In this document: in pieces, positions 13,484 to 49,921 of the stretch
How positions within the stretch are numbered: position 1 is the first letter of the stretch
Layout of the letters: every line of letters starts with the position of its first letter
IMG/VR virus record: IMGVR_UViG_3300036852_000300
Location: 22,417 to 86,416 of that record
Direction: 5' to 3' (one strand)
DNA from: a virus
DNA: 64,000 nt
Notes under the pieces: generated by a model
What the model saw: the letters and a program-made list of their open reading frames with translations, nothing else
Databases searched by the model: none
What the model was told of the DNA's origin: nothing
Program-made: the position numbers and the translations under genes

Positions 13484-13765
13484 ATGCAAGCCCTGGTCAG
13501 ACTCTCCGACCGGCAGGTCGTCGCGCTGGGGGAATGGAGTGCCGACCCCGTCGATCCCGATCTGGTGCTGGTCACCCTGACGCCGGCGCAGGAAGCGGCG
13601 CTGGCAGCACCAGGGGTCAAGTACATCGCCGAGAATGGCGAGGTCACGGTCATCCCGGTCGTGCTGGTCCCGACGATCGGCGAGCGTGAGCAGGAGGAGA
13701 CGATCGCCCGGGTGCGCCGGTCCGACCCGGAGCTTGCGACCCTGTTGTACGGACCAGCGTCATGA
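13484..13765 (+). CDS. Small protein after the collagen fibre
   Basis: A 93-residue acidic protein preceded by a strong Shine-Dalgarno (GGAGGCG, 13475-13481) and overlapping the next gene by ATGA. It has no recognised domain. It may be a fibre chaperone or a capping subunit because of its position between two adhesins, but that is inference only. Confidence 0.78.
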   Translation: MQALVRLSDRQVVALGEWSADPVDPDLVLVTLTPAQEAALAAPGVKYIAENGEVTVIPVVLVPTIGEREQEETIARVRRSDPELATLLYGPAS

Positions 13766-14997
13766 GCGTCGACGTCCAGGTCCGCACGTCGGACCGCCGC
13801 ATCCTGGCCTACGGTCAGCCGCTGGCCACGGCCCCGGCCGGCGCCAGCATCGTGACACTGCCAGACGCGAAGCTGCCGGAGCTGCGGCTTGACGGGCTGA
13901 AGACCCTTGAGGTCGACAACACGACGATCTCGCTGACGCCACCAGGGGCGCCGGATGAGTTCTCGCTGTATCAGGGCGCACCAGTGGCGAACTACCTGGC
14001 GAACCCGTCGTTTGAGGATGGGGGCACGACCGGTGTGCTGGCGCTGACGACCACCGCCTACACGCCGGCCGTGCCCGGCTGGCTGGCGCTGAAGGGCCAT
14101 GCGTCGGACGCCGCCAACGTCCTGTTGCAGGGCACCACCGTCGACACGGCGTACGGCGGCGAGACCGCGCTGCGTCTGTCCAAAGTCGGCATGAACGGCG
14201 TGCAGCAACTGGCCCAGTGGCTGCCACCGCGCCTGGTCAAGCATCTGCGCAACAAGGCGTTTGCGACCCGGTTCCGGGTCAACGCGGCCGTCCCCAGCGC
14301 GGCCCGGCCGTTCTACTGGAACGGTGTCACGACGACCTACGGGCCATCGAACACCCTGACCAACCAGTGGGAGACCCTGATCCAGCAGTGCAGCGGCCCA
14401 CCCGGCGGCGTCATCGCGGTTGGGGTTGAGCTGTTCGTGAACGCCAGCGGCGTGAACGTGTTTGTCGACAACGCGGCGCTGGTTGAAGGCTCGTTCGTCC
14501 CGAAGATCCTGCCGCCGGCAATCCCGCCGATGTTCAGTGGCGCCAGTTCGACGAGCGTTCAGCGGGCGCCGAGATGCGTGAAGTGGGCGGGCACCAACTT
14601 CATGACGATCAGCAGCACGCCAGCGGCCCTGCCGCTCTCGCAGGTGATGGTCGACAACGACAACATGGCCAGCGGCAACGGTCTGTTGATCCAGACCCCG
14701 GGCCGCTACCGGGTCACCGGGCAGATTTACAGCCATCAAACGACCGGCGGGGTCGGCAACTTTACCGCCTACTTCTCGATCAGCGGCGGCTTCCTGATCA
14801 ACGGGGCCAATGGCGAGCCGGGGGTTGGTAGCTACCAGAACAACGGCGCCTATGTGGTGCCCCAGTTTTCTGAGACCGCCTACTTCGCCGGCGGCGAGAC
14901 GATCGTCATGAACGCCTACCTCACGCAAGGCCCGGCCACCGCTATCGGCATCCACTACAACGGCACCTACTTGAAAGCCGATCGGCTGGGAGACTGA
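13762..14997 (+). CDS. Fibre/receptor-binding protein with CBM-like and TNF/C1q-like domains
   Basis: A 411-residue protein. Residues about 75-240 (ANPSFEDGG ... FVDNAALVEG) match the style of CBM4/9-type jelly-roll domains. The C-terminal 140 residues (PGRYRVTGQIYSHQ, ETIVMNAYL) look like the C1q/TNF-like trimeric head common at the tips of phage fibres. Probably a second adhesin. Domain names rest on pattern recognition only. Confidence 0.75.
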   Translation: MSVDVQVRTSDRRILAYGQPLATAPAGASIVTLPDAKLPELRLDGLKTLEVDNTTISLTPPGAPDEFSLYQGAPVANYLANPSFEDGGTTGVLALTTTAYTPAVPGWLALKGHASDAANVLLQGTTVDTAYGGETALRLSKVGMNGVQQLAQWLPPRLVKHLRNKAFATRFRVNAAVPSAARPFYWNGVTTTYGPSNTLTNQWETLIQQCSGPPGGVIAVGVELFVNASGVNVFVDNAALVEGSFVPKILPPAIPPMFSGASSTSVQRAPRCVKWAGTNFMTISSTPAALPLSQVMVDNDNMASGNGLLIQTPGRYRVTGQIYSHQTTGGVGNFTAYFSISGGFLINGANGEPGVGSYQNNGAYVVPQFSETAYFAGGETIVMNAYLTQGPATAIGIHYNGTYLKADRLGD

Positions 14998-14998
14998 G

Positions 14999-15343
14999 AT
15001 GCAGATCACCATCACCGACCCGGTCAACCGTGACCGACTGCTGACCGATCTCCAGGCGCTGCCCGAAGCGGTCGGACCGCCAGCGCCGGATGGCCGGGCG
15101 TCCAGCCTGGTCTCGCTGTCCTGGAATCCTGATCTCGGCGAGACCTACATCCACCTGCCGGACGACGACCCGGCGCTGCTGGCAGCCGTCCAGGCCGTGA
15201 TCGGTGCCCACAGCCCGGCCCTGACGCCGGCCCAGACCTACCCTGATCGCGATCGGGAAGAACTGCTGACGGTCGTGCAACAGCGGGCGGCGACCGACCC
15301 GGCCTACGCCGCGCTCGCAAAGCTGACCCTGGGAGAGATCTGA
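14999..15343 (+). CDS. Small tail-region protein, unknown
   Basis: A 114-residue protein that starts one base after the preceding stop (TGA-G-ATG) and shares a base with the next start. Predicted alpha/beta, no Cys, no membrane segment. Its C-terminal third (YPDRDREELLTVVQQRAATD) is helical. Unrecognised; placed among fibre genes. Confidence 0.75.
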   Translation: MQITITDPVNRDRLLTDLQALPEAVGPPAPDGRASSLVSLSWNPDLGETYIHLPDDDPALLAAVQAVIGAHSPALTPAQTYPDRDREELLTVVQQRAATDPAYAALAKLTLGEI

Positions 15344-15645
15344 TGGCGTTCGCTGACCAGTACGCACTTGGGGTCGACCCGGCCTTCCGCGCCCGGGTCG
15401 AGATGGCGCTGATCAAGGCGTCAACGGCCGTGATGGCCGAAGTCCAGAATGTCGACGGGCACGACTTGCGCGCGACCTACGCGACCTACGCGCTGAACAA
15501 CCCGGCCAGCGCCTCCGGCCCGATGGCGATGGCGGTCGCCGGCAACCCGGCCATCACGGCCGAGAGCGTCGATGGCGATCTAGAGTTCACCGTCAACAGC
15601 CTCTTCAGTGCGATGGCGGGTCACAGCACAGGCCCAACGTCGTGA
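15343..15645 (+). CDS. Small conserved-type phage protein with recoded 3' end (HNH target gene)
   Basis: A 100-residue helical protein. Its last 17 residues plus stop (15592-15645) are duplicated at 16245-16298 after an HNH gene: 15 or more residues match but most differing codons are synonymous (CTC/CTG, AGT/TCG, GCG/GCA, GCG/GCC). The upstream copy is the one used by this gene. The downstream copy, not this one, keeps the tight junction with the following gene, so this 3' end was probably brought in with the endonuclease. Cellular function unknown. Confidence 0.85.
   Translation: MAFADQYALGVDPAFRARVEMALIKASTAVMAEVQNVDGHDLRATYATYALNNPASASGPMAMAVAGNPAITAESVDGDLEFTVNSLFSAMAGHSTGPTS
15592..15645 (+). 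repeat. 54-bp repeat, recoded copy of a gene 3' end
   Basis: Upstream member of a 54-bp imperfect direct repeat with 16245-16298. It encodes VNSLFSAMAGHSTGPTS and a TGA. About ten positions differ, all but those giving Thr/Ala being silent. It marks the left boundary of the HNH insertion. Confidence 0.88.
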
Positions 15646-15688
15646 ACATACAGTGCGAGGAGCACAACATGCCTAGTACACTGGCCGC

Positions 15689-16243
15689 ATGCCGATCAAG
15701 GTCTGTCGTGCCTGCGAGAAACCGAAAGATACCGACAACGACTTCCCCAGGAAGCCGGGCGGGCGCTTCGGCGTTGCTGCCGTCTGCAAGCAGTGTGACA
15801 GTGCGCGATCCAAACGCTACTATGCCGCCAACCGCGAGCAGAAACTGGCCGCCCGACGCGCCTATGTCGAGGCGAACAAGGACGCCGTCTACACCGACAA
15901 CGCAGCCCGCAACCGGCGCCGGTACGCCAGCGATCCCGACTGGCGAGATCAACGGAACCGTGAGACGCGCGCAGCCGCCATCGCAATCCGCCGACTCGTC
16001 CTATCCCACTACGCCGGCGGCGAGCCCCACTGCGCCTGCTGTGACGAGACCGCCGACGAGTTCTTGCAGCTTGACCACGTCAACGGCGGTGGAGGAGTTC
16101 AGCGCGCCCAGTCTGGGTCTCGCGGGTCGACCGGCGTCTTTTACTGGCTCCGGCGGAACGGTTTTCCGGAGGGCTACCGGGTGCTCTGCGCCAACTGTAA
16201 CTTCGCCCTCGGGCGCTACGGGTACTGCCCACACACCCGCTGA
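15689..16243 (+). CDS. HNH homing endonuclease
   Basis: A 184-residue HNH nuclease. Residues 6-36 hold two CxxC pairs (C6/C9, C33/C36) expected to bind zinc. The nuclease core is C115..C118, then LDHVNGGG (D129, H130, N132), then the family signature FYWLRRNGFPEGYRVLCANC with C167/C170 and a final C180/H182. It is a free-standing gene between a host gene and that gene's displaced 3' end; its stop is one base before the displaced copy. Probably cuts element-free alleles near the 3' end of the 15343 gene. No intron features were seen. Confidence 0.93.
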   Translation: MPIKVCRACEKPKDTDNDFPRKPGGRFGVAAVCKQCDSARSKRYYAANREQKLAARRAYVEANKDAVYTDNAARNRRRYASDPDWRDQRNRETRAAAIAIRRLVLSHYAGGEPHCACCDETADEFLQLDHVNGGGGVQRAQSGSRGSTGVFYWLRRNGFPEGYRVLCANCNFALGRYGYCPHTR

Positions 16244-16244
16244 C

Positions 16245-16298
16245 GTCAACAGCCTGTTCTCGGCAATGGCCGGTCACAGCACAGGTCCGGCGTCCTGA
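16245..16298 (+). pseudogene. Displaced original 3' end of the 15343 gene
   Basis: Encodes VNSLFSAMAGHSTGPAS and TGA but has no start and no reading frame joined to it. Its stop lies one base before the next ATG (TGA-G-ATG), the same spacing as at 14995-15001, so this is very likely the ancestral gene end left behind when the HNH cassette inserted. Confidence 0.85.
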
Positions 16299-16299
16299 G

Positions 16300-18495
16300 A
16301 TGGCCGATCACGCTGAGCTGAACGACATCCACCTGGCCGCGTTCGTCCAGTCCGAAGAACCGACCGACGAGGACGTCCGGGCGAAGATCTTCTGGGTCGA
16401 CACGTCGGGCGGCGTGCCGTACCGACTGAAGGTCCGATCGGAGAGCGACGACGAATGGCTGCCGGTCGGGCCGGTCAGCATCGGCGGCGGCGGCGGCGGG
16501 GGCACGCCCGGCGAGAACGTCGCCCTGGCGACCGCCGGCGCTGTCGCCACGGCCAGTTCACAGAATGCTAGTGGCCCGGAGCGCGTCCCCGGCTTGACGA
16601 TCGACGGTGACGACGGGACAAGCTGGGCTGGCGCCTTCCCCAACGACGCGTCCGACGAATGGGTCAGGATCGATCTCGGGACGGCCGAGACGATCGCCGA
16701 ATACCGGGTCTTGAACAGCCCGGAGTCGATCGCCAACCGGGCGACGTCGGCGAAGCTGCAAAGCAGCACCGATGACGTCATCTGGACCGACCAGGTCACG
16801 ATCACCGGACCGTTCACCGACACCGGCAAGGTCGCCCTGCCGGTCGCCGTCACCGCCCGCTACTGGCGCCTGTACGGACTCGCCGGCGCCGACGTCGGCC
16901 ACTTCTGGGTCGTGAACACGATCGAGCTGTGGACGGCCGCGACCGGTGGCGGTGGCAGCGGCGGCAGCATCGTCTGGCAGGGGGACTGGAACAGCGCCCA
17001 GACCTACGCCCTGTTCGACGCCGTCAGCCACGAAGGGTCCAGCTACCTGTGCATCCTGGCCCACGTCAACCAGGAACCGCCCGCAGCTCTCTACTGGGGC
17101 CTGCTGGCGGCGAAGGGTGACACCGGAGCTGTCGGAGCTACCGGCCCGGCCGGACCGACCGGACCCGCTGGCCCACCCGGTGAAGGTGGCAGCGGCGGTG
17201 GCCTGACCAACCCGATGATCGCCCCGTTCGACATGATCTACGGCGCTGTGCCTGGCGAGCCGTACAGCGCCGTCTCACACCTGGACCCAGCGACGGCGAC
17301 CGCGTCATCGACCGAAGCCGGGTCCAGCCCCGACAACGTTCATGACGCCGATTTCGACACCTTCTGGGACCAGGGTGCCGGCCCGGCGGACGGCGGCTGG
17401 GTCGAGATCGATCTGGGGTCCCCGATCGAGATCGTCGCCTTTGAGGTGGTGACCAACGAGACCGGGGCCGGCTTCCGGGCTGACGAGTACGACCTGGAGT
17501 ATTGGGACGGGGCCACCTGGCAGGTGGCCAACACCCAGACCGGTCAGGGGTCGTCGTTCGGGACCGGCCTGGTCATCCTGGACACCCCGGCCACGGCCCA
17601 GCGCTGGCGGCTGCTGGGGGTTAGCGGCGGCGCCAACGGCTGGCGGATCACAGAGTTTTACCTGTACGACGGCGCGGCCGCCGGCGCCCCAGTCCGTCTC
17701 CCCAGCAGTTTCACTGAGAGCGACGTGCTTCAGCTTGACGGCAGCGGGCGGCCGTTCTGGGGCGCGCCGGGGTCCGGGGGTGGCTTTGCCAACCCGATGA
17801 CCGACGCCGGCGACATCATCGTCGGCGGGGCCAGCGGCGCGCCGGAGCGGTTCTCGGTGACCGACGGCGGGGCCGGCACCGTCCTTGGGGTCGGCAGCGG
17901 CGGCGCGATCGAGATGCTGACCCTGGTGCCGGGCTACACCCGCCCGATCGTCTCGCCGGTCGGCACATCCGGCTGGTTCACCTTTGGCAGCACCGGTGGC
18001 TGGAACGCCGCGAACTTCGGCGCCTTCACCGCCCAGAAGGGCGGCACTGGCACCGAGATGGTCGGCTGGCGACGCAACGTTCCGAGCCCGACCTGGGACA
18101 TCGCGGCGTTCATCGTGCCGACGCTCTCGCCTGACACCGACGCGGCGGTCGGCGTCATGCTGACCGGATCTGGCGGCGGCTACGCCGGCGTCGAGATCGC
18201 CTACGACACCGATCATTTTGAAGCCAGGGTCGTCTCCTCGACCGGCACCGTGACCCTGCCAACCACGCTGTTCAGCCAGGATCTGTTCAGCCTGCACCCG
18301 ATCTGGTTCCGGCTCCGGACGACCGACAACGTCAACTTCCAGGTCTGGTGGAGCATGGACGGCCGGGTCTGGCAGTCGCTGTCGATCCACGACCTGTCCG
18401 GCATCCTGACAGCCGCGACCGAAGTCGGGCCGTACGCCCGGGGCCTCTCTACCGGCGGCGGGCAGTTCAGCCTGGTCTCCTGGAGCAACACCTGA
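16300..18495 (+). CDS. Tail fibre/adhesin with two F5/8-type domains and a collagen segment
   Basis: A 731-residue protein. It contains two discoidin (F5/8 type C)-like domains, at residues about 75-205 (SWAGAFPNDASDEWVRIDLG) and 325-465 (DGGWVEIDLGSPIEIVAFEV), a CBM5/12-like module (WQGDWNSAQTYALFDAVSH), a short Gly-X-Y segment (near 17120-17180) and a C-terminal concanavalin-like beta-sandwich. All are carbohydrate-binding folds, so it probably binds host surface glycans. It shares the WxGxW module with the collagen fibre at 9045. Confidence 0.82.
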   Translation: MADHAELNDIHLAAFVQSEEPTDEDVRAKIFWVDTSGGVPYRLKVRSESDDEWLPVGPVSIGGGGGGGTPGENVALATAGAVATASSQNASGPERVPGLTIDGDDGTSWAGAFPNDASDEWVRIDLGTAETIAEYRVLNSPESIANRATSAKLQSSTDDVIWTDQVTITGPFTDTGKVALPVAVTARYWRLYGLAGADVGHFWVVNTIELWTAATGGGGSGGSIVWQGDWNSAQTYALFDAVSHEGSSYLCILAHVNQEPPAALYWGLLAAKGDTGAVGATGPAGPTGPAGPPGEGGSGGGLTNPMIAPFDMIYGAVPGEPYSAVSHLDPATATASSTEAGSSPDNVHDADFDTFWDQGAGPADGGWVEIDLGSPIEIVAFEVVTNETGAGFRADEYDLEYWDGATWQVANTQTGQGSSFGTGLVILDTPATAQRWRLLGVSGGANGWRITEFYLYDGAAAGAPVRLPSSFTESDVLQLDGSGRPFWGAPGSGGGFANPMTDAGDIIVGGASGAPERFSVTDGGAGTVLGVGSGGAIEMLTLVPGYTRPIVSPVGTSGWFTFGSTGGWNAANFGAFTAQKGGTGTEMVGWRRNVPSPTWDIAAFIVPTLSPDTDAAVGVMLTGSGGGYAGVEIAYDTDHFEARVVSSTGTVTLPTTLFSQDLFSLHPIWFRLRTTDNVNFQVWWSMDGRVWQSLSIHDLSGILTAATEVGPYARGLSTGGGQFSLVSWSNT

Positions 18496-48625: not shown

Positions 48626-48961
48626 TCAGGGCCGCCGCCGTCGGCGGGGCGGGTACACGATCGGCGCGTCCGGTTCGTGCCCGTAGTTCGTTGCCCACCA
48701 GTCCCGCAGGGTCCTGGTGACCATCCCCAGGGCGCCAACGTCGCCGGTCGGAAACTCGGTCCACTTGTACAGGTACACCCCCTGGACGCAGCCGTACTGG
48801 CCGAAGGTGACCTGGGCTTGCTGGGCCTGGTGCTCGGTGTTCACGCTGAACACCGGCAGGCCCGGGAAGCCTTTGATCAGGGTCTGACCCGGCGACCGCC
48901 AGGTTATGACGCCCGACGCTCAAATGAGAAGCTGTACCGGGCGGTTCATGTCGTCGGTCAT
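48626..48961 (-). pseudogene. Gene interrupted by an in-frame TGA at codon 14
   Basis: ATG 48961 is coupled by ATGA to the HNH stop and starts MTDDMNRPVQLLI, then TGA (48920-48922), then the same frame runs on for 97 codons to 48626 with normal composition. The only later start is GTG 48853 with no ribosome binding site. Either a recently broken gene or read-through. The inactivation lies next to an HNH insertion. Product unrecognised. Confidence 0.65.
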
Positions 48962-49416
48962 GCGTGCGTGATCTCCTCCGTGATTGGTGGGAATAGCTGG
49001 CCAGTCCGCAGCAGCGATCGTTTCCGGGCGCGGTATCGCTGCTGCTTGTCGGTCATGCACTGTCGACAGCGGCGATAGCCATCGCCGGTACGAGTGTTCC
49101 CAGTATCGAACGGGTGGTCGTTGGGACAGTGGGTGTTCTGCTGCTTGAAATGCCGCCCCTTCGCGGCCATGTCACGGTTGTTGCCCGCTTTCGTCGTCTT
49201 GAACAGGTGTAGTGGCTGACGGCAGGGGCGGTTATCGCAGTGGTGGGCGATGACCAGGCCGTCCTCGATAGGGCCGAAGCACTCCTCCCACGTGTAGGAA
49301 TGGGCGGTGCGGTCCCCCAGGCGCGTGCGGACCCGGCCGTAGCCGGTGTCCTGGAAGACCGGGCCGACCCACTCCTCGCACGGCATGGATCGCCAGTCAG
49401 CAGCCGGGCTATCCAT
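48958..49416 (-). CDS. HNH endonuclease (second homing element)
   Basis: A 152-residue protein; start chosen at ATG 49416, which overlaps the host gene end. The nuclease core is TGYGRVRTRL, SYTWEECFG and LVIAHHCDNRPCRQPLHLFK, an HNH_3-type layout, with CRQCMTDKQQRYRARKR at the end. Its last 18 residues, LLRTGQLFPPITEEITHA, repeat the C-terminus of the host gene at 49409 and then keep the original junction (ATGA) to the next gene. It is fused in frame to this displaced tail. Confidence 0.88.
   Translation of the reverse strand: MDSPAADWRSMPCEEWVGPVFQDTGYGRVRTRLGDRTAHSYTWEECFGPIEDGLVIAHHCDNRPCRQPLHLFKTTKAGNNRDMAAKGRHFKQQNTHCPNDHPFDTGNTRTGDGYRRCRQCMTDKQQRYRARKRSLLRTGQLFPPITEEITHA
48988..49014 (-). 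repeat. Displaced 27-bp copy of the 49409 gene's 3' end
   Basis: Encodes LLRTGQLFP at the end of the HNH gene. It matches 49418-49444 (LLRTGKLFP) at 20 of 27 bases; six of seven changes are silent. Original gene end, now fused to the endonuclease. Confidence 0.78.
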
Positions 49417-49921
49417 CTGGGAACAGCTTTCCTGTGCGGAGCAATGGGAACGAAAGCAGGTATTCACTGGCCAGGATGCCCAGGTAGTCGGGACCCAGGT
49501 AGTCGAACCGCTCGACCTCGTCCCTGTCGAACACGATGCCCCAGTACGCCGACCGCTCCGGCTCCGGCCAGGTCCGGTCCCAGATCTGGCCGGCCGGGTC
49601 GATCAGCCAGGCGTGCTGGCAGGGGATACCCTGGAAGTCGCCGATCGCCGCGATCGCGTACCCCTCAACGTAGCGTAGGGGCAGATCAGACGTTTCGCGC
49701 ACCTGGCGCAGCAAATCCAGGGTGTTCTGATAGCAGTAGCGCATCGGGCCGGGGACCACGAACGGGGGCAGCGGGGCGGACACCCAGGGCTGCCCCAGGT
49801 CGTAGACCAGGTGCTCATACGATCGGTAGCGCTGGGGTCGCGGCGTGGGACCCATCAGGGCCGGGATCGCCTCGACCATCGCTTCCAGGTAGTGGCGTAG
49901 CGTCTGGTGGATGTCCATCAT
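49409..49921 (-). CDS. Unknown protein, possible transglutaminase/papain-like fold (HNH target gene)
   Basis: A 170-residue protein. YCYQNTLDLLRQVRET gives a Cys, IPCQHAWLIDPAGQIWDRTW a His and Asp, an order expected for papain or transglutaminase-like enzymes. Its final codons (LLRTGKLFPDG) are a recoded copy of the displaced tail at 48988-49014; the product has lost the original last nine or so residues. Confidence 0.72.
   Translation of the reverse strand: MMDIHQTLRHYLEAMVEAIPALMGPTPRPQRYRSYEHLVYDLGQPWVSAPLPPFVVPGPMRYCYQNTLDLLRQVRETSDLPLRYVEGYAIAAIGDFQGIPCQHAWLIDPAGQIWDRTWPEPERSAYWGIVFDRDEVERFDYLGPDYLGILASEYLLSFPLLRTGKLFPDG

Follow-up and report, generated by a model that had tools for sequence, protein, structure and literature searches.

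A phage HNH endonuclease gene that probably brought a substitute end for its target gene

In the 64,000-nt stretch of viral DNA analysed here (the window, part of the 86-kb IMG/VR virus record IMGVR_UViG_3300036852_000300), a small tail-region gene is directly succeeded by an HNH endonuclease ORF, beyond which lies an orphan second copy of the gene's end. With a probability of roughly three in four, we interpret the insertion as a homing-type element that delivers an HNH gene together with a foreign but functional gene end, replacing the end of its target gene. Roughly a dozen other phage or prophage genes, unrelated to one another, showed the same layout, which looks like a recurrent natural "cut-and-rescue" mobile element.

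A homing endonuclease with neither intron nor intein breaks a conserved gene when it inserts into it, and leaves its cut site exposed when it sits beside it. Gene-end substitution would solve both problems, and an HNH element working in this manner would be nature's equivalent of engineered recoded-rescue drives. Such elements would also offer a route by which terminase, methylase, RNase H and tail genes of phages acquire foreign ends. Moreover, the orphan scar would point to the likely target of an HNH enzyme that could not otherwise be assigned one; if the interpretation is true, such scars let past invasions and probable cut sites be read directly from sequence.

Organization of the HNH locus in the window

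The original prediction had placed two 54-nt copies of the gene's end on either side of the HNH gene, with about ten, nearly all silent, differences; the copies were recovered at those positions (Table 1; blastn of the region against the window, E = 1.8e-6), and the differences amounted to 10 of 54 bases. Eight of the 18 codons were changed, seven of them synonymously (including AGT/TCG for serine), the single amino-acid change being Thr-to-Ala, while the first 11 bases of the two copies were identical. The downstream copy does begin one base past the HNH stop, and its TGA-G-ATG junction with the next gene is identical to that at 14995-15001, as had been described. The further claim that no gene is attached to this copy stood in part: a long stop-to-stop open frame is present there, but an open +1 frame, found across the HNH gene in the window and in locus L039, is a ~35% chance event at the base composition of the window and hence no evidence of a gene.

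Operon junctions near the locus are tight (at 13762, 14999 and 15343), and the remaining junctions in the operon measure at most 9 nt, versus 43 nt before the HNH ORF; therefore the HNH gene and its spacer are the intruders. The HNH assignment was upheld by matches to phrog_2255 (E = 3.4e-12) and phrog_1035 endonuclease VII (E = 5e-10), the Pfam HNH_5 match being weak (E = 0.045), and by these profiles the protein is a predicted member of the endonuclease VII-like/HNH phage families. The product of the host gene had no match in Pfam or PHROG.

Table 1. Features of the two HNH loci in the window and the curated cases of putative gene-end replacement
Feature	Position or locus	Strand	Remarks
Host gene body	15343..15591	+	100-aa tail-region protein
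Attached, putative substitute gene end	15592..15645	+	VNSLFSAMAGHSTGPTS-stop; in frame with host gene
Spacer upstream of HNH ORF	15646..15688	+	43 nt
HNH endonuclease	15689..16243	+	184 aa; LDHVNGGG...VLCANCN...CPH; stop at 16241-16243
Orphan, putatively displaced gene end	16245..16298	+	VNSLFSAMAGHSTGPAS-stop; 10/54 bases differ from 15592..15645
Next operon gene	16300..18495	+	F5/8 type C / tail-fibre-like, 731 aa; TGA-G-ATG junction with orphan end
Second host gene	49409..49921	-	Ends LLRTGKLFPDG; attached copy LLRTGKLFP at 49418-49444
Second HNH gene, HNH_3 (PF13392)	48958..49416	-	Unrelated to first HNH; overlaps end of 49409-49921 gene
3' gene end, putatively replaced	window		
3' gene end, putatively replaced	L257		N6/N4 methylase
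3' gene end, putatively replaced	L146		Terminase large subunit
3' gene end, putatively replaced	L039		
3' gene end, putatively replaced	L093		RNase H
3' gene end, putatively replaced	L184		HNH on opposite strand
5' gene end, putatively replaced	L049		
5' gene end, putatively replaced	L047/48		DUF6527
5' gene end, putatively replaced	L084		phrog_6186
5' gene end, putatively replaced	L238		
5' gene end, putatively replaced	L024		
5' gene end, putatively replaced	L019		Pth2-like; HNH on opposite strand

Recurrence of the layout among HNH loci

Related HNH loci were gathered from IMG/VR and GTDB genomes, 205 usable non-redundant ones were kept, and the translated sequence immediately before each HNH ORF was compared with that immediately after it. 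Peptide copies scoring at least 48 were found at both borders of 12 of the 205 loci, versus 0.00 expected from mismatched flanks (N = 1631). Ten of these were convincing, one (L082) was doubtful and one (L086) of low complexity; with L024 added by inspection and L238 from a wider scan, 12 curated cases were obtained including the window (Table 1). The layout occurs in ~6% of these HNH loci. As a control, the non-HNH ORFs of the same loci were scored: at a score of at least 65 there were six hits among 931 ORFs, versus 10 among the 205 HNH genes, and by inspection the six were low-complexity runs, a repeated domain and tandem paralogues.

In all curated cases one copy was part of a gene that is complete in other respects, and its counterpart across the HNH gene was an orphan; both gene starts and gene ends were affected, with the HNH gene in either orientation. 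One border was close to the HNH 3' end in every case, and in most cases this HNH-side border fell 9 to 52 nt past the conserved CPH codons; therefore the C-terminal codons of the HNH gene are often written in target sequence. The gene frame equalled the HNH frame plus one in nine of ten same-strand cases (window, L039, L049, L024, L146, L093, L084, L238 and L257). At L238:3886-4480 the orphan gene start was joined in frame to the HNH ORF, so that translation of the HNH protein may begin at the start of the invaded gene itself.

Several other matches were left uncounted: L035, L264 and L265 resemble tRNA-like sequence in translation, L270 consists of coiled repeats, L064 and L086 are of low complexity, L082 is doubtful, and L132 (a Dam methylase) has a partial plus a full copy that are too diverged. 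No good case was found among named phages with this HNH family, so the layout is uncommon; S-SRM01, Munch, AnClar, ANB28, Keanu, two Manatee Spring phages and LR756511 carried HNH genes without convincing duplicated ends. The single high score among them (98, in AnClar) came from low-complexity, out-of-frame sequence, and Galactica genes 102/104, which resembled a case, were set aside as old tandem paralogues, both present in Keanu without HNH.

Divergence and composition of the two copies

Attached and orphan ends were diverged in DNA and alike in protein: pS and pN were 0.52 and 0.09 in the window and 0.91 and 0.22 when pooled (11 curated cases), the cases having been detected by protein similarity, which favours conserved pairs. 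In a neutral simulation at the observed number of differences, run on the cases so picked and uncorrected for this choice, amino-acid changes as few as these had P <= 0.0002 in the window and P <= 0.004 in each of the other pooled cases. Because nearly every silent site differs while the protein is conserved, the copies are, to judge from the sequences, diverged homologues rather than a decayed duplication.

On the question of which copy is native, GC3 of the attached end, orphan end and gene body was 0.33, 0.94 and 0.88 at L084 (attached versus body, p = 8e-7), 0.22, 0.53 and 0.54 at L093 (p = 7e-4) and 0.35, 0.65 and 0.62 at L238 (p = 0.04). Composition thus supports a foreign attached end and a native-like orphan at these three loci alone; at L184 and L039 it does not favour the orphan as native, and in the window it is non-discriminating (0.76 in both copies). 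At all other loci, the window included, we infer the same polarity. The downstream copy of the window is probably the native one by analogy and operon spacing, the grounds on which its polarity is argued because no close uninvaded allele was found.

Proposed mechanism

The mobile unit would consist of a diverged but functional gene end, a short leader and the HNH ORF. The HNH enzyme is predicted to cut uninvaded alleles inside the segment that becomes displaced, and repair of the break, templated by the invaded phage, would insert the unit. The left junction would form by homology within the host gene, such that the gene runs on into the incoming end and stays whole, while the right junction would fall at or just past the final codons of the HNH ORF; the original gene end of the recipient would then remain as an orphan, joined to the operon downstream. 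The co-delivered end would thereby keep the target gene intact, and its altered bases would, by the logic of homing, spare the invaded allele from re-cutting; any such protection would need to reside in bases further in, because the window copies do not differ in their first 11 bases. Most simply, the incoming end would be the donor's natural gene end, with no need of special recoding.

The original prediction centred on an HNH element that carries a replacement gene end and pushes the old one aside. This idea is supported by the anatomy of the locus, by the dozen or so unrelated genes in which the layout recurs, by silent sites saturated with differences while the protein is conserved, by the non-HNH control, and, at three other loci, by an attached end of foreign codon composition. 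A broader proposal, to which we lean only slightly, is that such "home-and-rescue" HNH elements form a widespread natural class in phages, comprising at least two unrelated HNH families, present twice in this genome, and swapping either end of a conserved gene for a functional, cleavage-resistant version with the old end left as a scar.

Alternative explanations

Mosaicism is common in phages, and ordinary illegitimate recombination between two of them may have coupled the recipient's end to a diverged end with an HNH gene as passenger; the anatomy would be identical although the nuclease took no part. Galactica indeed has an HNH gene between the tandem paralogues shared with Keanu. We regard such an exchange as unlikely but a serious contender: flanking gene-end copies are much commoner at HNH genes than at the other ORFs of these loci, and every case has one border close to the HNH 3' end. 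Quite improbable is the reverse polarity, with a native attached end and an orphan piece that arrived with the HNH gene. The equal GC3 of the two window ends and the composition at L184 and L039 agree with it, but the foreign attached end and native-like orphan at L084, L093 and L238 speak against it, as does the tight TGA-G-ATG operon junction kept by the window orphan.

The HNH gene might also be skipped by splicing, frameshifting or bypass, in the manner of an intron or of ShiLan, the downstream copy being the working end, and for this speak the +1 frame open through the HNH gene in the window and in L039 and the same HNH family hidden within intact methylase-like ORFs. It is nevertheless very improbable, since the gene is already completed by the upstream copy, the distance of 653 nt between the copies is not divisible by 3, the open frame is a frequent chance event, and no intron was detected. 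A group I intron with an HNH ORF was rejected accordingly (no Rfam intron family up to E = 5; just 43 nt from host gene to HNH), as was an intein, the host gene stopping at 15645 and the HNH gene being a separate, stand-alone ORF between copies at that spacing. Hardly credible is a duplication of the target at insertion followed by drift of the unused copy: the insert is flanked by a direct repeat, as this would require, but drift would break the protein sequence of the orphan and could not lead to silent sites near saturation beside a conserved protein, and the neutral simulation made so few amino-acid changes improbable in the window and in the other pooled cases.

Relatives of the host gene

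If a gene-end-substituting element had entered the operon, relatives lacking it were expected to have the host gene directly abutting its neighbour. Relatives without HNH at this locus were found, and in L012, Rizwana and Tank the host gene overlaps or abuts its neighbour, which fits insertion into a once continuous operon; for a comparison of the gene ends themselves at the DNA level, these three are too distant from the window. All homologues of the host gene were distant (L012, 44% amino-acid identity; Streptomyces phage Gilgamesh gp73; Arthrobacter phages Rizwana gp34 and Tank gp36), and all lacked the HNH gene there. Relatives without HNH that still carried both copies would have spoken against the idea; searches with the tails of these relatives gave no second gene-end copy among the matches listed. 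Scans of IMG/VR with the host gene, the neighbour gene and the tail pattern, and blastn of the region against phages at a distant setting, returned distant kin alone, and a close uninvaded allele was found neither for the window nor for any other case (for the L257 methylase, the 291 genomes searched from its order yielded no relative at E <= 1e-40).

A second HNH element in the window

The window holds a second HNH gene of a different family beside another host gene, with a layout like that of the first (Table 1). The C-terminus of this HNH_3 protein contains LLRTGQLFP (48988-49014), fused in frame, with seven of nine codons changed relative to the attached copy, six of them silently, and the stop of the HNH_3 gene overlaps the next ATG, as in the operon. 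The LLRTG match is short, yet it is present at both borders. A further HNH gene (PF01844) lies in the same virus record outside the window (G000:C1:17756-17887, minus strand).

Comparison with known systems

The parallel originally drawn with Allomyces atp6 holds and is wider: endonuclease ORFs of fungal mitochondria also substitute the C-termini of Glomus atp6, atp9, cox2 and nad3, Rhizopus atp9 and Mortierella cox2, where the native end matches that of relatives and silent differences dominate (PMC3630166). The likeness includes a foreign C-terminus attached to the gene, then the endonuclease ORF, then the native C-terminus displaced downstream, with DNA diverged and protein nearly identical (PMC3630166). 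On the other hand, the fungal elements are mitochondrial and of LAGLIDADG or GIY-YIG type, whereas those described here are HNH elements of phages and prophages; and unlike the fungal C-termini, they involve both 5' and 3' gene ends and both HNH orientations. Gene-end substitution, known in fungal mitochondria, seems, provisionally, to be undescribed in phages, as had been supposed: no such description was found in the open-access papers covered.

Among phage enzymes, T4 SegF, SegG and MobE (intronless homing) are likewise free-standing beside a conserved gene and not intron-borne (PMC2988022). That review puts their cut sites hundreds to thousands of bp away from the gene of the enzyme, unlike the gene-end layout here, and a search of it for duplicated or displaced ends gave no gene-end case (PMC2988022). 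HNH-encoding group I introns (I-HmuI type) also place an HNH gene in a conserved phage gene, by means of an intron, which was not detected here. An HNH-like gene between the ribonucleotide reductase alpha and beta genes of Stenotrophomonas phage ANB28 (L283; 10-bp overlap) resembles T4 mobE in placement.

The ShiLan domain is an HNH hidden inside a mycobacteriophage methylase and, like the present element, has no detectable intron or intein (PMC11855218). Its first 11 residues mimic the 11 residues after the insertion site and resemble uninvaded genes more than invaded ones (75.9% versus 69.5%), a mimic that the authors weighed as an intron signature and not as a substitute end (PMC11855218). 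The gene-end-substitution model would explain this mimic; unlike the window element, the ShiLan insertion is internal and in frame and does not end the gene (PMC11855218). The HNH family of the window also occurred out of frame within long uninterrupted methylase-like ORFs, as in ShiLan, at L022, L228, L182, L068, L067, L087 and L252, and fully open +1 and +2 frames across HNH ORFs numbered 8 and 4, versus 1.9 and 0.2 expected. In a 595-kb phage (L279, LR756511), an HNH ORF is fused in frame to a protein that, by its sequence, resembles a nicotinamide/nicotinate phosphoribosyltransferase.
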